This document shows, in pieces, positions 7,232-42,499 of a stretch of DNA of 42,499 nucleotides. Source of the stretch: a virus. Position 1 is the first letter of the stretch. Every line of letters begins with the position of its first letter. The position numbers and the translations under genes are program-made. The stretch covers positions 1-42,499 of IMG/VR virus record IMGVR_UViG_3300010400_000031; one strand, written 5' to 3'. The notes beneath the pieces are model-generated. The model ran no database searches, had not been told where the DNA came from, and saw nothing but the letters and a program-made list of their open reading frames with translations.

Positions 7232-7260
7232 CCTCGCCTAACAAATGCGGGGTGAATCCC

Positions 7261-8226
7261 ATGAAACGCAAGGCTTTTACGCTGATCGAACTCTTGGTGG
7301 TGATCGCCATCATCGCCATTTTGATCGGGCTACTTTTGCCCGCCATCCAGAAGGTAAGAGAAGCGGCCAGCCGGATGCGGTGCTTGAACAACATGCGGCA
7401 GGTGGGTTTGGCGCTGCACAACTACCACGACGCCAACATGAAGTTCCCCACCTCCGGGGAGGGCGTCACCAACGGCGTAAGCGTGTTCGCCACCAACTCG
7501 ACCTACACCTACCTCTTGCCGTACATCGAACAAGGTAATATAGCTAACGGGTTCAATTTGAACTTTGCCTACAACGATTCAAGAGCGCCCGGCAACCAGA
7601 CGGCCGCCAAGAACTCGGTTAACATCTTCCTGTGCCCCAGTAACCCCTACGCCTTTATCGACCCCCAAGGGTACGGCCGGGCCGACTACATGCCCATCGT
7701 CTCCACTAACATCGACCCCGCGACCGGCAAGCCGACCGCCGTCAAGGTCGAGGCCGGCATGCTCCGGTTGAACGGCTCGACCCTCACCGAATGCAGCGAC
7801 GGCACCAGCAACACCCTCGCCTTCGTGGAGGACGCCGGCAAGGTCCCCGAAGGGGTTACGGGAGGGATGCTCTCCAACTACATGGACACCAACTCGTTCG
7901 GGGTGGATAAATCCCCGACCGGGCGCAGGGTCCACACGCGCTGGGCGGAACCCGACATCGCCAATGGGATCTCCGGCCCTCCCAGCGGTCCCGACTACGG
8001 TTTGAAGGTCATCAACAACCACGCTTCACCCAAGGGCGGCCCCACCACCTGCCCCTGGACCGATAACAACTGCGGACCCAACGACGAGCCGTTCGGGTTC
8101 CACACCGGGGGGTGTTTGGGGGTGTGGGGAGATGGACACGCCTCCTTCATCCGTGATACGATCTCACCGGCGCTCATGCGCGCCCTGATCACCCCCAACG
8201 GAGGGGAGGTCGCCTCGATCGACTGA
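7261..8226 (+). CDS. DUF1559-type pseudopilin-like protein
   Basis: The 321-residue protein has a type IV pilin-like N terminus: basic KRKA, then the [14 protein letters not shown] core with Glu at mature position 5 and a 20-residue hydrophobic helix. Residues 36-60 ([17 protein letters not shown]) match the DUF1559 consensus, and the C terminus has H281-X9-D291-G292, the H-X9-DG motif of planctomycete prepilin-processing-associated proteins. These families are hugely expanded in Planctomycetes, where they are probably processed by a prepilin peptidase and surface-exposed. The ATG at 7261 has GGGGTGA before it. It is an independent unit behind three copies of the 17-bp repeat. A cellular origin is likely. 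Confidence 0.9.
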
Positions 8227-9246: not shown

Positions 9247-10575
9247 ATGGGAATCTTCGGGAAGAAAATACGTCGATCGCTGCGGCCCGGAGGGGCGCTT
9301 GTCCCGTCCCGCTCCGGGGTATCTCTAGCCGGCGGTTTGCGGTTGGACATCAACCACCGCTCCGGCGGCGGCGCGGCCGTCTACACCCCGCCCTCCATCC
9401 CCGGTCTGCTGGCGCTGTACCGCTTCAACGAAGGGTCGGGATCTTCTCTGGTGGACTGGAGCGGTAACGCCCGCCACGGCACCCTGGTCGGCTCGCCCGC
9501 CTGGGGTACTCCGGGCGGACTGACCTGCACCGGCTCCCAGCGCGTGACGCTCCCCAACGCCGTGATGGCGACCTCCAAGACTCACATCTTCGTCTCCGGG
9601 CAGATGGGCGGGTCCTACCACACGTTCGCCGGCAGCAACGACGGCGGGGAACTTCTCCTCTTCCAGGCCACCGGAGCGCCGACCATTTTCAAGGCCGGCG
9701 TCGGCGCGACGACCGACACGACCGCGCCGGTCAAAGGCATCCAGATGGTCACGCTGATCACGTCGGCCACCGCCGCCAGTGATCGTCTTTATCAGCACAC
9801 CCAGGAGATGACCTACTCGAATCGGGGGTCAAGCTACGCCCACACGCGCACCACGCCGACGATCGGTAACGGCCTGACCTCCTTGTTTCCCGCCGCCGTG
9901 GCGCTCTACTACGCCGCGTTCTTCAGTATCGAGTTGGACACAACGCAACTAGCTACCTTGCAGGCGTCGATCCAATCGGACCTATCATCGTTCTGGGGTA
10001 TGGGGCGGCAGGTGATCGTGGACGGCAACTCCCTCTTGGAAGGCAGCGCCAACCCATCGACGCCGGACAAGCTCATCACCAAGTTGACGGCGCTCCTGCC
10101 GGTGAACGTCACCGTCACCCTCGTGGCGGCTTCGGGGCAGCAGACCTCTTCGATGGTGACGACCGGCCCCCGTAACGAGTATGACATCCGCCGCCCCAAG
10201 AACGTCTACATCTGCTGGGAGGGGACCAACGACCTGGCGCTGGGGAGCGTCTCCACCGCTACCGCTCACAATAACATCGCCGCCGTCTGCGCGGCGCAGC
10301 GCAACCGGGGCTGCAAGGTCGTGGTCGGCACCATCCTCCCGCGTACGGACGCCGGTACTTTTACGGAGGCCAACCGGCAGACCGTGAACACCTTGATCCG
10401 TAACAACTGGACGACCTACGCCGACGCGATTGCCGACTTCGATCTGGCCCCGACGATCGGCGCAGCGGGGGCGAATCTGACGGGAACCTACATCAACGAC
10501 AACGTCCATTTGGGGGCGACCGGCAACGACGCGGCGGCACCGATCCTGGGCACCGCCGTTAACTCCTTGTTGTGA
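9247..10575 (+). CDS. LamG-like plus SGNH/GDSL hydrolase, virion esterase
   Basis: The 442-residue protein has an N-terminal LamG-like beta-sandwich (residues 50-235, starting LLALYRFNEGSGSSLVDWSG) and a C-terminal SGNH hydrolase domain. The conserved blocks are visible: VDGNSLLEG with catalytic Ser262, Gly297 in SGQQTS, EGTNDLALG with Asn328, and DNVH with Asp418 and His421. The block I Asp of GDS is Asn261 here. Such domains deacetylate or cleave esters of surface polysaccharides, so this probably acts on host capsule or glycan during adsorption. GGAG precedes ATG 9247. Its position upstream of terminase is away from the fibres. Confidence 0.8.
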   Translation: MGIFGKKIRRSLRPGGALVPSRSGVSLAGGLRLDINHRSGGGAAVYTPPSIPGLLALYRFNEGSGSSLVDWSGNARHGTLVGSPAWGTPGGLTCTGSQRVTLPNAVMATSKTHIFVSGQMGGSYHTFAGSNDGGELLLFQATGAPTIFKAGVGATTDTTAPVKGIQMVTLITSATAASDRLYQHTQEMTYSNRGSSYAHTRTTPTIGNGLTSLFPAAVALYYAAFFSIELDTTQLATLQASIQSDLSSFWGMGRQVIVDGNSLLEGSANPSTPDKLITKLTALLPVNVTVTLVAASGQQTSSMVTTGPRNEYDIRRPKNVYICWEGTNDLALGSVSTATAHNNIAAVCAAQRNRGCKVVVGTILPRTDAGTFTEANRQTVNTLIRNNWTTYADAIADFDLAPTIGAAGANLTGTYINDNVHLGATGNDAAAPILGTAVNSLL

Positions 10576-12746: not shown

Positions 12747-14282
12747 ATGAAGAGAAAACTCACGACGAATCAGGCGAAATACCTCATCAACGAGGCATTA
12801 TCGATTATTTCCCGTCAGGCGTACCTTTCGGGACGTCGCGACGACCCGCGCTACGACCTCGATAAGGAGTGCGGTTACAACCCCCAACCCGACATCACGG
12901 ACTTCTGCGAGAAGTACCGCCGCAGCGGGTTGGCGCGCCGCGTCGTCAACATCTTCCCGTACGAATGTTTCGCTGTTGATCCGATCATTTACGAGACGGA
13001 GCGGCCCCGTGATACGTTGTTCGAGAAGGGCTACAAGGCGCTGATCGAGCGCCCCGGCTGCAACCCCAACCACTACTACCAGCGGATCGACGCGCTGTCG
13101 GGCAAGGGGACGTTCGGCGCGCTCCTCTACGGCTTCGACGACTCCAAACCGCTCGACACCATCGTGGACGGGCTGGACGAGTCGGGCGCATCGGTAGGCA
13201 GCCCCAAGGGTCGCAAGCTCCTCTACCTCCGCGCCTTCGACGAATCGGCCGCTGCCGTCAGTCAGATCCAGAGCGACCCCAGCAACCCCCGCTTCGGCTA
13301 CCCCCAGTTCTATGAGCTAACCTTTCAGGACGTGACCAACACCAACCTGACCAGGGTCCGCCAATCCAAGGTCCACTGGTCGCGGGTGCTGCACGTCGCC
13401 GAGACGGAGGAGATGTCGGAGATCTACGCGACCCCGCGCCTTGAGCCGGTGTTCGACCGGATCACCGACGACCGCAAGTTGCTGGGGTCCGACGCGGAGG
13501 GCTACCGCAAGCAGGCGTTTCCGGGCATCGCCATCAAGACCGACCCGCGCTGGATCGAGGCGGGCGGCTCCGAAGTCGATCAGGACTCGATTGATGAAGA
13601 GATGTTGAAATTCATGGATGGACTCCAGCATTACATCTCGCTCGTCGGGTTGGAAGCTGATACCCTGACTACACAGGTGTCGGACCCCACACCACACCTG
13701 ATGGTCCAGTGGACTTCCATCTCGATCGCACTGGGGATCCCGCTACGAATCCTCATGGGCAGCGAGCAGGCCAAGCTGGCCTCTGGTCAAGACATGAAGT
13801 CTTGGAACCGCCGTCTATCGCGGCGGCAGACCAAGTATCTCACCCCCAAGCTGATCCGGCCCTTCGTGGACCGTCTTATTGCTGTCGGAGTCATCCCACC
13901 GCCGAAGCTCAGGAACGCCGACGGGACTTACAAGTACGAGGTGTTCTGGCCGGACATCAACATGCCGGACGAGGACGAGAGGTCGGTCATCGCCGACCGC
14001 AACGCCGCCTGCTTCCAGAAGTACGTCCAGTCGGAGGCGTACAAGTTCGTGCAGTTCTCCGACTGGCTGCGGTTCTTCATGGGCCGCACCGAAGCCGAAA
14101 TCCTTCAGATCATGGAGAACATCAAGAAGCCGCCGGAGATCGAGTTCGAGGCCCAGGCGGTCAGGATCGCCAAGATGGCTCCGAAAGTCCCGCCCGGGGG
14201 TACTCCAAAAGTCAAAAAATCCGGCGACAGTGGCGTTGCCGGGAAGCCGCCGTCGGACGTCAGGGCGAGCGCCGGCAAATAA
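12747..14282 (+). CDS. Portal protein (DUF1073-like)
   Basis: The 511-residue protein follows the terminase and has the hallmarks of a phage portal of the DUF1073 type: FCEKYRRSGLARRVVNIFP near residue 52, the segment QWTSISIALGIPLRILMG near 325, then ASGQDMKSWNRRL, and a C-terminal helical region ending in a Pro/Gly/Lys-rich tail. The portal forms the dodecameric ring at one capsid vertex. The ribosome site is weak (GAGAAACG). It is followed by a membrane/coiled-coil gene and the two receiver genes rather than by the usual capsid gene cluster. Confidence 0.85.
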   Translation: MKRKLTTNQAKYLINEALSIISRQAYLSGRRDDPRYDLDKECGYNPQPDITDFCEKYRRSGLARRVVNIFPYECFAVDPIIYETERPRDTLFEKGYKALIERPGCNPNHYYQRIDALSGKGTFGALLYGFDDSKPLDTIVDGLDESGASVGSPKGRKLLYLRAFDESAAAVSQIQSDPSNPRFGYPQFYELTFQDVTNTNLTRVRQSKVHWSRVLHVAETEEMSEIYATPRLEPVFDRITDDRKLLGSDAEGYRKQAFPGIAIKTDPRWIEAGGSEVDQDSIDEEMLKFMDGLQHYISLVGLEADTLTTQVSDPTPHLMVQWTSISIALGIPLRILMGSEQAKLASGQDMKSWNRRLSRRQTKYLTPKLIRPFVDRLIAVGVIPPPKLRNADGTYKYEVFWPDINMPDEDERSVIADRNAACFQKYVQSEAYKFVQFSDWLRFFMGRTEAEILQIMENIKKPPEIEFEAQAVRIAKMAPKVPPGGTPKVKKSGDSGVAGKPPSDVRASAGK

Positions 14283-14293
14283 GGAGCTACCTC

Positions 14294-14836
14294 ATGGGCG
14301 AAGGCGGGATCACCTTCACTCCAGCCGGCATCGTGGTGATCGGCACCCTGCTCGTGGCCCTCGTCAGCGCCATCGGCGTGCTGTTCCGCGAACTGATGAA
14401 GGCCAAGGATGACCGCCACCAGGCGCTCATGGTTGATAAGGACAAGCGGATCGCCGAACTGGAGAACATGGAGGGCAAGGGTCACACGGCGACGGAGAGC
14501 CTCCAGGCGCAGGCCATCGCCAAGCTCGAACGCAAGGTGGACGAATTGGAGGCGATGATCCATTTTTTGCAAGAAGAGTACACTTCTGCACTCGAAGAGT
14601 TCGCTGAGATATGGGGTTGGATGACCCGTTTCGCCGACATCGCGAAACGTAACGCGGCCAAGTTGGAGGAGATTGGCCATCAAGCCGAGTACGTTCCCGA
14701 CCTCCCTATGCGTAGGGACCGGAAGCGCCCCGACAGAGGGTTCCAGCGCCGCACGGAGGCGCAGAACGATATCCTGATCGGTAAGGCCGCTGAAGTGGTC
14801 CAGAAAGGGATCGAGGGCCGGAAAGAGGGGACGTGA
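14294..14836 (+). CDS. Membrane/coiled-coil protein
   Basis: The 180-residue product starts MGEGGITFTPAGIVVIGTLL and has one N-terminal membrane helix (about residues 12-32), then a long charged helix (35-110) likely to coil, and a basic C terminus. ATG 14294 has an AAGGAG site. Its stop overlaps the first receiver start as TGATG, so all three genes are probably coupled. The layout recalls holin-like or spanin-like proteins but no lipobox is seen. Function unknown. Confidence 0.75.
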   Translation: MGEGGITFTPAGIVVIGTLLVALVSAIGVLFRELMKAKDDRHQALMVDKDKRIAELENMEGKGHTATESLQAQAIAKLERKVDELEAMIHFLQEEYTSALEEFAEIWGWMTRFADIAKRNAAKLEEIGHQAEYVPDLPMRRDRKRPDRGFQRRTEAQNDILIGKAAEVVQKGIEGRKEGT

Positions 14837-15201
14837 TGGCACTTCATGTACTCGTCGTTGAAGACAGCAAAACGACCGCCGACTCGTTGGAGATCATCCT
14901 CCGGGCCAAGAACTACTGGGTGAAGACCGTCGCCTCCGTACCGGAGGCTCTTAACTGGCTCACTGTCGGCCCACTGCCGGATAGGGTTCTGGTAGACTAT
15001 TATCTGGTAGCGGGGGACGGGATCGAACTGGTCAAATCCCTGCGGTCCATGAAAGGGGCAGAGAACATCCCGGTGGTCGTCATGACCGCCGCCGACACCA
15101 CCAAGGTGTGCGAACTGAGGAAGATCACCGCCAAGATGGGTCCGATATCGGTGATCGAGAAGCCCTTCGAGGCCGACACGTTGCTGGAGGCGATTGCATG
15201 A
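14836..15201 (+). CDS. Stand-alone CheY-like receiver 1
   Basis: This 121-residue protein is a single receiver domain with all phosphorylation residues: acidic pair E9-D10 after VLVV, phospho-acceptor D54 in VLVDYYL, T84 in VVMTAAD, and K109 in VIEKPF. No output domain follows. Receivers accept phosphate from a histidine kinase, here probably a host kinase because none is visible in the phage. The gene starts in the stop of the upstream gene (TGATG) and ends in an ATGA overlap with receiver 2. Such genes in a structural operon are unusual and suggest capture from a host. Confidence 0.92.
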   Translation: MALHVLVVEDSKTTADSLEIILRAKNYWVKTVASVPEALNWLTVGPLPDRVLVDYYLVAGDGIELVKSLRSMKGAENIPVVVMTAADTTKVCELRKITAKMGPISVIEKPFEADTLLEAIA

Positions 15202-15578
15202 AGATCCTGTTCGTAGAGGACAATGCAGTAACCGCTGCACACCTACGGCAGAGGGCAGGGGTCCACCAGATCCACGTCGCCACGACTTCCCTGGAAGGCG
15301 CGGCGGCGATCATGAACACGGATTACGACTTCGCCGTCGTTGACTGGTTCTTGGATGAGAAAGAACCGACCGGACTTGCCCTTATTCAAGCGGCCCGCCG
15401 CGTCGGCGTTGACAAGCCTATGATCCTGGTTACGGCGGTGGACGGACCTCCTTTCCACCGCCTCGTAGGGGAGTGCGCCAAACTGGAGAAAGTGGGAATA
15501 CTCCCCAAACCGTACACGATCGATAGCCTCATTGCGGTAGCGAACCGCCTTGGTGGTGAAACGCCCCCGAGTCCGTAA
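15198..15578 (+). CDS. Stand-alone CheY-like receiver 2
   Basis: This 126-residue receiver has the acidic pair E7-D8, acceptor D49 in AVVDWFL, T79 in ILVTA and K104 in ILPKPY. It resembles receiver 1 in fold but is clearly diverged, so the pair is not a fresh duplication. The start at 15198 overlaps the previous stop as ATGA. It ends 18 bp before a membrane protein gene. Tandem single receivers may compete for host kinases or bind partner proteins. The target is unknown. Confidence 0.92.
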   Translation: MKILFVEDNAVTAAHLRQRAGVHQIHVATTSLEGAAAIMNTDYDFAVVDWFLDEKEPTGLALIQAARRVGVDKPMILVTAVDGPPFHRLVGECAKLEKVGILPKPYTIDSLIAVANRLGGETPPSP

Positions 15579-15596: not shown

Positions 15597-16112
15597 ATGT
15601 TCAACGACGCCTACGAGTTTCTTACGTCGGACGCCGGCAAGCAATGCTGCTCGTATCTGTGGAACGCACTCATGCTCCTGACCGGAGGGACCGGCCTCGC
15701 CGTCTCCCAGTGGTTCCTCACCGTCGTGTTCGGCAAGCACAAGCAGGAGGTCAAGCGACTGATCGAGGCGATCCGCGAGGGCGACGTGACCCCGCACGAG
15801 ATCACCCGCTACGACATCCAGAGGCAGATCGGGGTCAAGGACACCGTGCTGCGTGTCGTCGGCACCAAGCTGTGCATCGACGACTCCGTCAAGGTGCCGT
15901 GGGGCGGCGAAATCTCCGGCGTCGTCACCTTCGACGGCGTAGATCAGTCCAACGTCTACACCCGTGATGAACTGAAGAGGATCCTGGCGGCGGCGAAGTG
16001 GCGGCGCAAGCAGTTGGTGGTCCGCGACCGCGAGGCGCAGCGGAAACTCCTGGCCGACCACATCCCCAACCCGAAGATGCCGCAATCGGACAAACCCACC
16101 CTCAAGGCGTGA
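15597..16112 (+). CDS. Membrane-associated hypothetical protein
   Basis: The 171-residue product has one hydrophobic helix at about residues 25-46 (MLLTGGTGLAVSQWFLTVVF) and a charged, basic C-terminal half with DKPTLKA at the end. The middle (GTKLCIDDSVKVPWGGEISG) has a beta-strand pattern. ACGGAG precedes ATG 15597. It sits directly after the receivers and before the secreted protein at 16121. A membrane partner for the receivers is conceivable but not shown. Confidence 0.7.
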   Translation: MFNDAYEFLTSDAGKQCCSYLWNALMLLTGGTGLAVSQWFLTVVFGKHKQEVKRLIEAIREGDVTPHEITRYDIQRQIGVKDTVLRVVGTKLCIDDSVKVPWGGEISGVVTFDGVDQSNVYTRDELKRILAAAKWRRKQLVVRDREAQRKLLADHIPNPKMPQSDKPTLKA

Positions 16113-16120
16113 GAGGAAGA

Positions 16121-16951
16121 ATGAAGTACCTGCGTGCGGTTGCGCTCGCCCTGGCACTGGCTGGGGCGGGCTTCGCGGACGAAACCCCCAAGAGGAACGT
16201 CCCGCTGACGGTAAGCGGCGACACGGTAACGGTCGTGAAGACCCTGCCGTGCAAGATCACCGCAGCCCCGGGCGCTTCCATCTACATCTGGAACGTCCCG
16301 GACGCGGTCAAGGCGACCAAGGAAACCAAGGGCAACGTGTTGACGGTGATGGAAGCCCCCAAGGGGAGCTACAAGATCACCGTCTTCTCCATGACGATTG
16401 ATTTCGACAAGAAGACAGTCACCGAAGATGCCGGCGAGATCACCCTGGTGGTCGGCGACGTAGCGCCGCCCAAGCCGCCGGAACCGCCGAACCCCCCGAA
16501 GCCACCCGATCCACCTCCCCCGGCTGGCGCGATGCGGGTGTTGATCGTATACGAGACGGCTGACCTCCCGAAGATGACCTCGGCGCAGCGGACCATACTC
16601 TATGATCCGGTGGTCAAAGGCGCGCTCAAGGACAGGACCGACAAGGCGGCCCCTGACGGCAGAGGCTGGAACATCTGGGATAAGGACATGGACGTCACCG
16701 ATGCCGACAAGTTCTGGCAGAACGGTTTGAAGAGGACCCGTCCATCGACACCTTACATTCACATCTGGAAGGGTGATACCATTGCGTACGAGGGTCCTCT
16801 GCCGGCCGATAGCAAGGCGACCGTGGATCTTATCACCAAGTATGCGGGCGATACGTCGCTGCACGAAGAGCCGGGTTCATGGACGGAAATTCGTGCAACC
16901 TCGAAGAGGTCGCCGGTCTTCTCCCGCCCGTCCGCCCACGGAGGTAAGTAA
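16121..16951 (+). CDS. Secreted proline-rich linker protein
   Basis: The 276-residue product starts with a Sec signal-like peptide (MKYLRAVALALALAGAGFAD, cleavage probably after GFA). A beta-rich domain follows (residues 25-115), then a Pro-Lys linker (about 120-140), then a C-terminal domain with RVLIVYETADLP and HIWKGDTIAYEG segments. This architecture is common in planctomycete exported proteins, hinting at host origin. The first ATG at 15998 overlaps upstream coding sequence in a shadow frame; 16121 has GAGAGGAAGA. Its stop overlaps the papain-like gene start. An extracytoplasmic role is inferred. Confidence 0.75.
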   Translation: MKYLRAVALALALAGAGFADETPKRNVPLTVSGDTVTVVKTLPCKITAAPGASIYIWNVPDAVKATKETKGNVLTVMEAPKGSYKITVFSMTIDFDKKTVTEDAGEITLVVGDVAPPKPPEPPNPPKPPDPPPPAGAMRVLIVYETADLPKMTSAQRTILYDPVVKGALKDRTDKAAPDGRGWNIWDKDMDVTDADKFWQNGLKRTRPSTPYIHIWKGDTIAYEGPLPADSKATVDLITKYAGDTSLHEEPGSWTEIRATSKRSPVFSRPSAHGGK

Positions 16952-17883
16952 TGCTGTACCCCGATGAACTGGTAATTGGTGACACCAACTACCAAGAACA
17001 TATCGCCCCGCACGTCGATTCCGAAGGGCCGCGCAAAACCGGGATGGTGCCGCGTAACTGGGACGACTACCCGCAAGGGTACTTCCCGGGCGAGATCGGC
17101 ATGCACGCCGTGCAGGATCTTACCGCGTTCGACCCGTCTGACTTCCCCAAGTTCATCAAGGAGTTGGAGGAATCCCAGACCCGGCTGTCGGACTTCCGGA
17201 TGAAGGGCAAGGACGGCGGGATGATCCCCAGCCTCGATCAAAATGGTCGAGGATATTGTTGGCGACACAGTCCCGTCTCGGCGCACCAACTGCTGCGGGC
17301 GCGCGACGACATGCCATTCGTTGACCTCAGCCCCTACGCGGGCGCTTGCCGTATCAAGAACTACCGCGACGAAGGCGGCTGGGGCGCGCAGGGTCTGGAC
17401 GACGAGATGACGTTCGGCTCGCCGTCGTCGAAGTTCTGGCCGCAGCGCTCCGTTAACCGGGCCAATGACAACGAGGCGACGTGGGCGGACGCCAAGAAGC
17501 ACCGCATCACCGAAGGCTTCATCGACATGGGTTCGCCCCAGTACGACCGAAACCTCACTTTCAACCAGATGATCACCTGCCTCCTGTGCCGGATCCCGGT
17601 GGTGATCGATCTGAACTGGTGGTCACACAGTATCTGCGCCTGCGATGCGGTCAACGGCGTCTCGCAGTGGAAGATCACGCGGGCCGCTTCCGGAAAGCTC
17701 ATGACGCTCAGGGTCTTCGAGTCGTTCTGGGGGGTGAACACCGTGACCGGCGGGATCTGCCCGCGTATTTGGAACAGTTGGGGCGACTCCTACGGTTCCA
17801 ACGGCATGGCCGTTTTGACGGGAACCAAGGGCGTCCCGGACGGCGCTACCGCCCCGAGAGCCGCCCGCTGGTCTATCAGCTAA
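16951..17883 (+). CDS. Papain-like cysteine peptidase (C1A fold)
   Basis: The 310-residue protein has the order of papain catalytic residues: Q97 with C103 in QNGRGYCWRHS, H226 in WWSHSICA, and N275 in WNSWGDSYG. These match the Gln-Cys-His-Asn set of family C1A, which cleaves peptide bonds. The N-terminal 90 residues could be a propeptide or binding region. No signal peptide is seen at its own N terminus. GGAGG precedes ATG 16951. It could act in virion maturation, cell-wall entry or host manipulation, and the sequence alone does not say which. Confidence 0.85.
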   Translation: MLYPDELVIGDTNYQEHIAPHVDSEGPRKTGMVPRNWDDYPQGYFPGEIGMHAVQDLTAFDPSDFPKFIKELEESQTRLSDFRMKGKDGGMIPSLDQNGRGYCWRHSPVSAHQLLRARDDMPFVDLSPYAGACRIKNYRDEGGWGAQGLDDEMTFGSPSSKFWPQRSVNRANDNEATWADAKKHRITEGFIDMGSPQYDRNLTFNQMITCLLCRIPVVIDLNWWSHSICACDAVNGVSQWKITRAASGKLMTLRVFESFWGVNTVTGGICPRIWNSWGDSYGSNGMAVLTGTKGVPDGATAPRAARWSIS

Positions 17884-18820: not shown

Positions 18821-19930
18821 ATGTCGGCGACAATGCAAAGGATGGTCTTCAACCTAGCGGCACGAATCCGCAGGGAGACGCACGAAGGTCGCAGCTACCT
18901 CGTCGCCCCGGTTGTCCTCCTCACCGAAGGCGTCCACGAAGGCTCCGGCGGTCCCCTCCTGTACTCGGCCGACAAGCTCAAAGCCAACCCCGCCGTGTGG
19001 AATCATATGCCTTTGGTGGTTTACCACCCTGAGGCCAACGGCGAGCCGGTCAGCGCACGCTCCCCCGGCGTGCTTGATTCACGCAAGGTCGGACTCGTCT
19101 TCAACGCCTCTTACGACACCAAACTCCGCGCCGAAGCTTGGTTTGACGAACTGAAGACCAAAGAGGTAGACGTTCGCGTGTACAATGCCCTGGTGAAGGG
19201 CGAGCAGATGGAGGTATCCACCGGCCTGTACACCAACGCCACCGACAAGGTCGGGGAATTCGGCGGACTGAAGTACCAAGGTGAAGTCAACGACATCATC
19301 CCCGACCACCTCGCCGTGTTGCCTGATAAGAAAGGCGCTTGCTCTCTTGATAGGGGATGCGGCCTTTTACAGAATGAAGCCCCCGTCGTAACCAACTGCA
19401 ACTGCAAGGAGTCGAACGTGGACAAGAAGGCGCTGATCGATAACCTCCTGACCCTCAACAGTGACTGGACGGCGGCCGACCGACCGGTGCTGGAGTTGAT
19501 GACCCCGGAGCGGATCCAGAAAGAGATCGACAAGATCAAGAAGCCGGCACCGGCCCCGGTGGCCAACGCCGCGCCTCCCCCGCCGCCGGCCCCGCAGACC
19601 GGCACGACCCTGGAGAGCTACCTCGCGGCGGCCCCGGTCGAGATCGCCGGACCGCTGGCCGAACTGGTCGCCAACGCCGCAGCCGCCAAGGCCGAACTGA
19701 TCGCCAAGATCAAGCTGAACCAGACCGGCCAGGAGCAGATGCTCTCCGACTCGTACCTCGCGGCGCAGCCCCTGGCGGCGCTCAAGGTCATCGCCAACAT
19801 CTCCTCGCCTCGGGGCGTTACCGCACCGGCAGCGCAGCCCAACTACGGCGGTCAGGCCACCGTGCCGGGCGTCGTGACCAACACCAAGCAGCAGGCTCTG
19901 GAACCGGTCGAGTACGACTGGAGCAAGTGA
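18821..19930 (+). CDS. Capsid maturation protease/scaffold (DUF2213-like)
   Basis: The 369-residue product has the DUF2213 pattern: GVLDSRKVGLVFNASYD, then EAWFDELK, then ALVKGEQMEVSTGLYTN, and DHLAVLPDKKGACS with a Cys-rich GCGLL. This type is often encoded just before the major capsid protein. The C-terminal half is Pro/Ala-rich and helical, as in scaffolds. It is expected to guide prohead assembly and be cleaved during maturation. Start ATG 18821 (GGAGG). The catalytic residues cannot be assigned from sequence alone. Confidence 0.8.
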   Translation: MSATMQRMVFNLAARIRRETHEGRSYLVAPVVLLTEGVHEGSGGPLLYSADKLKANPAVWNHMPLVVYHPEANGEPVSARSPGVLDSRKVGLVFNASYDTKLRAEAWFDELKTKEVDVRVYNALVKGEQMEVSTGLYTNATDKVGEFGGLKYQGEVNDIIPDHLAVLPDKKGACSLDRGCGLLQNEAPVVTNCNCKESNVDKKALIDNLLTLNSDWTAADRPVLELMTPERIQKEIDKIKKPAPAPVANAAPPPPPAPQTGTTLESYLAAAPVEIAGPLAELVANAAAAKAELIAKIKLNQTGQEQMLSDSYLAAQPLAALKVIANISSPRGVTAPAAQPNYGGQATVPGVVTNTKQQALEPVEYDWSK

Positions 19931-33336: not shown

Positions 33337-33767
33337 TGAAAAATACCGTTCCCATCCGGCCGGAATGCGGCCACCTGTTGATCTCGTCCCACGGTGACCG
33401 CTGTGTCACCTGCGAGGTCATTAAGCGCGCCGGCAGGGAGCATGAGATCCAACCCGAACCAGCAGTGAAAGCTACTACACCAAAGCCCCTCCCACCGTCC
33501 TTTACGATACCCGCGCCCGCTTGCATTCATCGCGGCCGTCCCGTGCGCGAGGGGGCATGCGATCTGTGCGGCCGGCGCGATCAGACCGTCGAGGTCAGAT
33601 CTTGCGCAATATTTGGCGAATGCACGTCGGAACAAAACGGACGGGTCCGTGGCGTCAGGCGCTGCCAGGGATGCCCCGATGCAACAACCGATCCGAACAC
33701 ACCGCTGAAGCTAAACAAGTCCAAGAACCCACAGCGGCGTCCCGGGAAAGGACCGGTGGGCGCATGA
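33303..33767 (+). CDS. Cys-rich zinc-ribbon-like protein
   Basis: The 154-residue product starts with ATG 33303 (GAAGG before it) and overlaps the end of the previous gene by 34 bp; the ATG at 33336 is an alternative. Cysteines occur as CGH..C..C near residues 22-37, C near 74 with CDLCG near 85, and CAIFGEC..CQGC near 100-122, consistent with zinc binding. The middle is a Pro/Lys linker and the C terminus is basic. It overlaps the glycosyltransferase gene as ATGA, suggesting a joint function. Confidence 0.7.
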   Translation: MAATPQPDVSLMKNTVPIRPECGHLLISSHGDRCVTCEVIKRAGREHEIQPEPAVKATTPKPLPPSFTIPAPACIHRGRPVREGACDLCGRRDQTVEVRSCAIFGECTSEQNGRVRGVRRCQGCPDATTDPNTPLKLNKSKNPQRRPGKGPVGA

Positions 33768-34522
33768 AGCCGATGATCTGCCGCATGGCGATCGGGTCGT
33801 GGGAGCGTGCCGAACTGGCCTCGTGGACGATCCAGGCGACCATGCGGGCACTCAAGATGCCGGGGATCTCCGACGTCGTCAATGGGTTCTTGGATGTGTG
33901 CCCTACCCCGGTGGCGCGCAACCGTGCGGTCCTCCTGGCGCGAGCCAACAAGTGCGACGTACTGTGCTGCGTGGACGCCGACACGCTGCCCCATCCTGAT
34001 TTCCTTGAAGCCGCTCTGCTGGAGTTGCGCACCGGCCAGGAGGATAAGGTAGTCGTCTGTCCCTGCGTCTGCACGGGCGATACCAACCACGTCCAGGTGT
34101 TCCGCTGGGGCACGCGCCAGGACGCTACCGATGACGACCAACTGGGGCGGTTGGAGTACGTCTCCCGCGAGGAGTCGGCGAGGCTACAGGGACGCGAAGA
34201 GGTGGCCTGTGCCGGTGCCGGGGCGTTCGTCTGCCACACCAGGGTCTTCGACCGAATAGCACCGCCCTGGTTCGATTACGAGTACACCGATGACTTCCGT
34301 GCCACCCTGGCCAGTACCGAAGACATCCGCTGCTTCCGCGACCTATCGCTAGCCGGGGTCAAGTTCGTGTGCCTATGGTCGCACTGGGCGACCCACTACA
34401 AGACCATCGCGCTGGTCCGCCCGGTCGCCCTGACGGTCGGAGACGTGAACGAAAGATACCGCCGGTTCATGCTGCAAGAGGCTGCAAGAAAAGCCCCGAC
34501 TTCACTGAATGAAACTTCGTAG
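33764..34522 (+). CDS. GT-A-fold glycosyltransferase-like protein
   Basis: The 252-residue product starts MKPMICRMAIGSWERAELAS. The features are an ARNRAVLLARA helix, a DADTLPHPDF motif near residue 71 (the Asp-X-Asp metal site of GT-A enzymes), an GAGAFVCHTRVFDRI segment near 150, and PPWFDYEYTDD. It would transfer a sugar from a nucleotide donor. Its target may be phage structural protein or host glycan. The gene ends with the 17-bp repeat (T-S-L-N-E). Start ATG 33764 overlaps the stop upstream. Confidence 0.75.
   Translation: MKPMICRMAIGSWERAELASWTIQATMRALKMPGISDVVNGFLDVCPTPVARNRAVLLARANKCDVLCCVDADTLPHPDFLEAALLELRTGQEDKVVVCPCVCTGDTNHVQVFRWGTRQDATDDDQLGRLEYVSREESARLQGREEVACAGAGAFVCHTRVFDRIAPPWFDYEYTDDFRATLASTEDIRCFRDLSLAGVKFVCLWSHWATHYKTIALVRPVALTVGDVNERYRRFMLQEAARKAPTSLNETS
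34499..34515 (+). repeat. Dispersed 17-bp quasi-palindrome at gene end
   Basis: ACTTCACTGAATGAAAC lies at the very end of the glycosyltransferase gene, coding for T-S-L-N-E. It is 56 bp before the next start. Confidence 0.75.
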
Positions 34523-41741: not shown

Positions 41742-41978
41742 TCAATCATCCGGCGAGAAAGGACGATCGCACTTCTTCCGCCAATACCGTTCGTACTCCT
41801 CATCGGTGACTACGAAGTAGCGTGAGTAGCATCCGGTCCTGTTCAGGTCATCGGCTGTACTCACTAAATTCTCCAACGTATCCTCACCCTCGAAGCCGTA
41901 CAGCGCTGACTTGTAGTAGATGGGATTTTGAACCTCTACACCCTCGGGGACCATAGCTATCAAGTGGAAGTCAGCCAA
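41742..41978 (-). CDS. Small hypothetical protein
   Basis: The 78-residue product starts with TTG 41978 (GGAGGTGG upstream) and reads LADFHLIAMVPEGVEVQNPI. Its start overlaps the end of the ATPase gene by 8 bp, so translation is probably coupled. An ATG at 41954 is an alternative. The C terminus is charged with EYERYWRKKCDRPF. Function unknown; it may regulate or partner the ATPase. Confidence 0.65.
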   Translation of the reverse strand: MADFHLIAMVPEGVEVQNPIYYKSALYGFEGEDTLENLVSTADDLNRTGCYSRYFVVTDEEYERYWRKKCDRPFSPDD

Positions 41979-42499
41979 TTTCCACCACCTCCCCGATGTG
42001 CAACTCCGGCGAGTGAGTGACCAAGATGAACTGGATCCCCGTCTCCTCGGCCAGTTGCTCGATCAGCTTGGCGACCCTCTTCATGTTGATCCTGTCAACG
42101 AACTTGAACGGTTCATCCATCACCAGCACCGGCGCTACGGGCGGCTGATGTAGCCGCAGACACGCCAGACGTAGCGCAAATGACGCTACGTCAACCACGC
42201 CCAGACCACTTGCCTCTACCGGATCGACCTCCATGCCGTCGCGCCTGAAGTAGAGCCGCGCATCCGTACGCCCCCGCTTGCGCTCGAACTCGATGCAGAA
42301 CTCGTAGGGGTCGTCGAAGACCGCCCGCAAACAGCGGGTGACCACGTCGGCTATCCTGGCGTGGACCGCCGTCTGGACCGGCCCCTCGTCGTCCCAGGCG
42401 GAGGAGCCCATCTCGTCCTTGCGGTCGGGGATGCCGAAGAGCAGGAACGCGCGCAGGCCCTCCTCACGAGCCGCCGCGACCTCCTCGAGGAGACGATCG
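41971..42499 (-). CDS. Rad50/SMC-like ATPase, C-terminal part, 5' end outside window
   Basis: The frame is open from the window edge at 42499 down to the TGA at 41973-41971, so the N terminus is missing. It ends with an ABC-type ATPase C half: an SGLGVVDVASFALRLACLRL signature-like segment, VLVMDEPF (Walker B with the catalytic Glu next to Asp), a D-loop-like FVD, and FILVTHS (switch His). Upstream residues RLLEEVAAAREEGLRAF look like the end of a coiled coil. Such phage ATPases (gp46/Rad50-like) process DNA ends for recombination and replication. It belongs to the leftward early genes. Confidence 0.8.
   Translation of the reverse strand, partial: DRLLEEVAAAREEGLRAFLLFGIPDRKDEMGSSAWDDEGPVQTAVHARIADVVTRCLRAVFDDPYEFCIEFERKRGRTDARLYFRRDGMEVDPVEASGLGVVDVASFALRLACLRLHQPPVAPVLVMDEPFKFVDRINMKRVAKLIEQLAEETGIQFILVTHSPELHIGEVVEIG

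Follow-up and report, generated by a model that had tools for sequence, protein, structure and literature searches.

What would a phage do with two response-regulator receivers that are encoded in its late operon, overlapping each other and the membrane gene in front of them? The arrangement is found in a 42,499-base linear IMG/VR virus record (IMGVR_UViG_3300010400_000031), which is referred to as the window throughout. The window comes from an uncultured phage and is assigned to a large environmental siphovirus clade. Its gene set includes a terminase, a Phage_portal_3 portal, a phrog_760-type gene (prot760), and a DUF6260/encapsulin-like capsid protein, with a small conserved protein encoded just upstream of the capsid gene. 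The slot between portal and prot760 carries, in this order, a small membrane protein (mem180), the two receivers (RecA and RecB), a protein of 171 aa, one with a signal-peptide-like N-terminus, and a candidate papain-like peptidase (Table 1).

Table 1. Positions of the features discussed, in window coordinates unless another locus is named.
Feature	Position	Strand	Basis or remark
DUF1559 (SBP_bac_10), pilin-like, N-methylation pilin motif	7252-8226		between small and large terminase genes
Portal protein (Phage_portal_3)	12747..14282	+	E 3e-22; left border of variable slot
mem180, 180 aa, one N-terminal TM (residues 13-31) and charged coiled coil	14294..14836	+	TM and heptad scores
RecA, 121-aa stand-alone receiver, acceptor D54	14836-15201	+	Pfam E 4e-16; AlphaFold2 and PDB match; residues
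RecB, 126-aa stand-alone receiver, acceptor D49	15198-15578	+	Pfam E 8e-7; AlphaFold2 and PDB match; residues
171-aa protein, weak hydrophobic segment, possible coiled coil	15597..16112	+	heuristic scores; no Pfam or PHROG match
276-aa protein, signal-peptide-like N-terminus, Pro-rich linker	16121..16951	+	sequence; no Pfam or PHROG match
Papain-like cysteine peptidase candidate (GYCW, SH, NSWG motifs)	16951..17883	+	weak PDB sequence match to papain family, E 0.12
phrog_760-type protein (prot760)	18821..19930	+	E 6e-17; right border of variable slot
Rec-HisKA-HATPase_c kinase of relative G106	L116:712-1815, L263:9382-10485	-	overlaps small membrane gene
Pseudo-receivers without acceptor Asp	L272:3498-3950, L262:7679-8113		small membrane neighbour kept

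Two receivers and their membrane neighbour

The original prediction, made from the letters of the window, described two coupled stand-alone CheY-like receivers, which is confirmed by Pfam, by the AlphaFold2 fold, and by PDB matches. RecA scores 59.6 bits against Pfam Response_reg (PF00072), above the cut-off of 30.2, and RecB scores 29.6 bits, just below it; RecB also matches a solved receiver in sequence over the whole domain, in addition to the fold match. Structure prediction, which had been proposed as a check, returned confident receivers in both cases (pLDDT 92.5 for RecA and 89.6 for RecB), with the PhoB receiver (E 7e-9, TM ~0.85) and the PhoP receiver (E 1.4e-7, TM ~0.72-0.75) as the top PDB matches, respectively. 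The acidic pair, acceptor Asp, Thr, and Lys are kept in both proteins as claimed, and the phospho-site is complete in RecA (E9, D10, D54, T84, K109-P) and in RecB (E7, D8, D49, T79, K104-P). An output domain is absent from both, which was also correctly noted, and the reported overlaps were borne out: in TGATG, the last base of the mem180 stop TGA is also the first base of the RecA ATG, this start being the ATG within GTGATG, and in ATGA the RecB start runs into the RecA stop. The possibility that RecB is a recent duplicate of RecA was rejected, since the two share 24% identity. The G+C content of the receiver block (0.58, 0.59) and its tetranucleotide composition are ordinary for the contig and thus give no sign of an assembly artefact.

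Among known proteins, bacterial CheY, Spo0F, and DivK, which are among the PDB matches, have the same receiver fold and phosphorylation site and likewise no output domain. RecA and RecB differ from them in being phage-encoded, in having a membrane-anchored coiled-coil partner, and in sharing only ~20-30% identity. The cyclic-phosphate processing Rec (cRec) of jumbo phages is also a receiver-like phage fold, but a divergent version placed with NAD/ADP-ribose genes (PMC7824862). RecA is nearer to canonical receivers (PhoB E 7e-9 vs 1.8e-3 for the cRec type), and no NAD/ADP-ribose processing genes were found by Pfam among the slot neighbours. Direct searches of viral contigs with RecA and RecB found no close relative, and the portal alone likewise found none. 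As for the PADLOC defence models, no family matched over most of either protein, the receiver part of RecA giving a partial match to SduA (E 9e-5).

mem180 has no Pfam match. Its coiled-coil score is 1.18 and the coiled coil is predicted to be cytoplasmic, for which reason mem180 was rejected as a spanin. With the TGATG overlap, RecA is coupled directly to a small coiled-coil protein that has a membrane anchor, and mem180 is proposed to be the membrane partner of RecA and RecB. The statement that no kinase is visible also held: no HATPase_c kinase was found in the window, so that the cognate histidine kinase of a complete two-component system is absent within it. Genes at both contig ends, however, run off; the genome is therefore incomplete, and the missing part could encode a kinase. 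Pfam and PHROG reveal no recognisable holin, spanin, or endolysin beside the window receivers. The papain-like peptidase candidate a few genes further on may be a lysis enzyme. L006:6426-7445 is perhaps a second papain-like peptidase candidate in the same slot, sequence-unrelated to the first.

The pairing in relatives and in unrelated phages

Searches based on the MCP and the portal yielded several hundred environmental phages as relatives, of which the best were fetched. The PF00072 scan covered the records of 207 relatives and found receivers in 7; many of these records are fragments, so absence of a receiver is not proof. Five receivers are above the PF00072 cut-off (G106, G184, G185, G189, and G205) and two are below it (G176 and G197), while a weak 12-bit match in G032 was dropped. 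The interval from portal to phrog_760 is variable, ranging from 0.3 to 8.8 kb at 109 loci of relatives, and its cargo is mixed, usually consisting of other genes such as Mu F-like, glycosyltransferase, and methyltransferase genes. A general lysis role for this slot is thus unsupported. The window receivers are inserted in this slot, and those of other relatives have different positions in the late region.

Nearly every clade receiver adjoins a small membrane or coiled-coil gene. In G184 and G185, an N-anchored coiled-coil protein of 192-193 aa overlaps the receiver by 4 nt. The receiver of G189 and G176 has its overlap with a small membrane protein that is C-anchored and contains a charged helix; a holin-like and a lipoprotein-like gene come next. 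A small membrane/coiled-coil gene adjoins the receiver in G205 and G197 as well. The late operon of G106 (42,458 b) has a 119-aa membrane gene with a 4-nt overlap with a 367-aa Rec-HisKA-HATPase_c protein. The coiled coil is absent from the G106 partner, and the partners in G189 and phage V19 are below the coiled-coil threshold. mem180 has no clear homology to the other partners, its match to that of G184 (E 0.001) lying over a low-complexity stretch.

The same pairing recurs in unrelated phages. In the Alteromonas phages H4/4, R8W, R9Y, XX1924, PB15, V22, and A5, a receiver lies beside a TM/coiled-coil protein together with holin, spanin, or endolysin genes. V22 and A5 have the order TM/coiled coil, receiver, Rz-like spanin (phrog_4297, E 7e-6 and 3e-8, respectively), and holin-like gene, with an endolysin as the next gene in A5. 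H4/4 and R8W share the order holin (phrog_1356, E 3e-14), TM/coiled coil, receiver, 2-TM protein, and terminase. The receiver is followed by a GH108 endolysin in R9Y2, where a TM/coiled-coil gene precedes it, by an M15 peptidase and a GTA holin in PB15, and by DUF5675 and a GTA holin in XX1924, the gene before it in the latter two being coiled coil/TM. In V19, a pseudo-receiver without the Asp accompanies a TM protein whose tail is charged. Microcoleus phage My-WqHQDG (L264:3352-6442) encodes a kinase, two receivers, and a coiled coil/TM protein in consecutive overlapping genes amid replication genes. According to the positive-inside pattern, the coiled coil is cytoplasmic in most partners. 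H4/4 and R9Y2 have homologous TM partners (E 5e-11), and a conserved L..L..HL.NQR C-terminus is present in the H4/4 and R9Y partners. Most receiver matches in the phage collection were excluded as short unannotated or very large records resembling bacterial DNA. The match in Stenotrophomonas phage Bhz63 was also set aside: it is a PhoP-like regulator of 239 aa rather than a stand-alone receiver, and the next gene is annotated as kinase-like.

The pairing of a receiver with a membrane coiled-coil protein is well supported. A small TM plus coiled-coil gene directly adjoins the receiver in 10 of 12 lineages, compared with 13% of background genes, the background being drawn from environmental clade genes only and not from Alteromonas phages. 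The corresponding binomial P is ~1e-7 at the middle threshold and at most 4e-4 at all twenty threshold combinations, for lineages that are not fully independent and a crude rule (hydropathy plus heptad heuristic) whose thresholds were first set after the partners had been seen. For proximity to lysis genes in the cultured Alteromonas phages, a rough estimate assuming a 10-gene lysis neighbourhood per genome gives ~4e-5; since V22 and A5 have the module in common, true independence is below that assumed in this estimate.

Single receivers in phages are already known (PMC7289586, PMC10579305, PMC8228385). The original prediction knew of no standard siphovirus module of this kind, which agrees with their rarity among related siphoviruses, but stand-alone CheY-like proteins have been published in Alteromonas phages V22 (gp30) and A5 (gp11), as auxiliary metabolic genes of a host-recognition module rather than as lysis genes (PMC7289586, PMC10579305). 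Like the window, V22 and A5 have a late-region single receiver with a small TM/coiled-coil neighbour (gp29 and gp10, respectively) and no adjacent kinase; unlike the window, they have one receiver instead of two, and the Rz-like spanin and holin-like gene that follow are absent from the window slot. In R8W (Autographiviridae), gp48 is a 153-aa receiver-only protein directly after the TM/coiled-coil protein, which is itself after the holin. R8W gp48 (L267:20436-20897) is labelled 'PhoB' and V22 gp30 (L117:5750-6199) 'hybrid sensor histidine kinase - response regulator'; both hold a receiver domain only, so these published or database labels overstate the sequences.

Possible functions of the module

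As a tentative reading, which we favour while giving it slightly less credence than doubt, RecA and RecB together with mem180 form a membrane regulator that responds to phosphorylation and most likely controls the timing of lysis. RecA and RecB would then be phosphorylatable single-domain response regulators working with the co-translated, membrane-anchored mem180, which would hold its coiled coil at the inner membrane on the cytoplasmic side; the receivers, likewise predicted to be cytoplasmic, would bind this coiled coil or act through mem180. Host histidine kinases, a phage kinase encoded beyond the contig, or small phosphodonors such as acetyl phosphate could serve as phosphodonors. Phosphorylation would alter the mem180 complex and thereby report the state of the host to a membrane event late in infection. 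This event would most likely be lysis timing, with the module acting as a lysis-inhibition or antiholin-like brake, or as a trigger.

Physical interaction between the receivers and mem180, phosphorylation in the host, and control of lysis in the window phage are what we infer here, the last of them by analogy because holin, spanin, and endolysin are unrecognised in the window. The original suggestion that such receivers gate virion release fares similarly: it gains support, by analogy, from the same pair lying inside the lysis cassettes of several unrelated cultured phages. Counting against the lysis reading, the Microcoleus module sits among replication genes, and two receivers (G197 and V19) have lost the acceptor Asp, so that phosphorylation is not essential everywhere. 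Both of these pseudo-receivers retain the membrane neighbour, which suggests that partner binding is the more conserved function of the receivers.

The Microcoleus location, together with the kinase encoded there, fits a host-reprogramming auxiliary module. In this case mem180 and the receivers would act at the membrane to take over a host kinase or a chemoreceptor-like array, and what changes would be motility, adhesion, stress response, or superinfection instead of lysis. The mixed cargo in the slots of the window and its relatives points the same way, as does the publication of the V22, A5, and R8W receivers as auxiliary metabolic genes (PMC7289586, PMC10579305, PMC8228385). However, the module is found within lysis cassettes in Alteromonas phages, and this, together with the late gene order, makes reprogramming unlikely, if still a serious contender.

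It is improbable that RecA and RecB are phosphate sinks or decoys that silence a host pathway by taking up phosphoryl groups from one or several of the host's histidine kinases. Such a drain, also put forward in the original prediction, found no positive support, even though it would suit intact catalytic residues, the missing output domain, and a window with no kinase, and two receivers would raise its capacity. It leaves unexplained why translational coupling to a membrane coiled-coil gene recurs and why the location is in lysis cassettes; the late region would correspond to an odd time for host takeover, and both G106 and the Microcoleus phage encode a kinase themselves. Furthermore, the pseudo-receivers without the Asp retain the same neighbour.

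The latter observation leads to another proposal, a receiver fold used for binding or structure: an adaptor that works independently of phosphorylation in a complex at the membrane or in virion assembly. The neighbour is kept by the pseudo-receivers G197 and V19 and also by G176, in which the acidic pair is lost. Loss of the acceptor Asp in relatives, named beforehand as an outcome that would speak against phosphorylatable receivers, is confined to a minority, however: the Asp is retained in 15 of the 17 other phage receivers compared and lost in these 2 pseudo-receivers. With both window copies fully intact as well, we see little chance for a pure adaptor. Chance cargo or an assembly artefact without function in the phage, for which the rarity of receivers in the clade could be cited, is very improbable and already largely refuted by the intact reading frames and sites, overlapping starts, ordinary composition, and the same arrangement in independent phages.

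For a lytic phage, when to lyse is a central life-history decision, and no case is known to us of its being linked to two-component signalling. In N4 (gp62/gp63) and in T4 lysis inhibition, small membrane proteins also set lysis time, but no receiver fold is reported for them, the 'Receiver domain' of the N4 paper being a coined name for a pinholin region (PMC12642591). No report of phage receivers as lysis-cassette genes was found in the literature searched, most subscription journals being outside its scope. The occurrence in lysis cassettes suggests that some phages time their release by host signalling. A broader claim, that the regulator of lysis timing favoured here belongs to a widespread and unrecognised class, in which receivers (sometimes with a kinase) would act via membrane-anchored coiled-coil partners and the host phosphorylation state would set the moment of lysis, is conceivable, although we doubt it more than we believe it. 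If the lysis-cassette receivers are phospho-switches, phages would read host physiology via the host's own signalling chemistry, and the labels 'PhoB', 'hybrid sensor histidine kinase', and auxiliary metabolic gene would need correction. Since R8W, R9Y1-3, V22, A5, H4/4, PB15, and XX1924 were isolated on Alteromonas hosts, the idea is directly testable.

Host and other cargo of the window

Among plasmid records, the DUF1559 gene has matches in Planctomycetota plasmids only, so that the host of the window phage is probably a member of the Planctomycetota; DUF1559 was not found in the Bacillota relatives tried. The gene is odd cargo for a phage, and a partial match to it lies in the portal-prot760 slot of the relative L033. 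A host search across genome contigs gave one Dethiobacter MAG contig as the sole match. This Dethiobacter alkaliphilus contig (L112) carries relatives of the window capsid, phrog_760, and portal genes and is either a prophage of the clade or a co-binned phage of the clade. Other genes of the window include a protein with a GDSL lipase C-terminal domain upstream of the large terminase (9247-10575), a glycosyltransferase-2-like gene amid the tail and late genes (33521-34522), and an AAA/RecF-SMC-like ATPase gene that runs off the right end (41971-42499).
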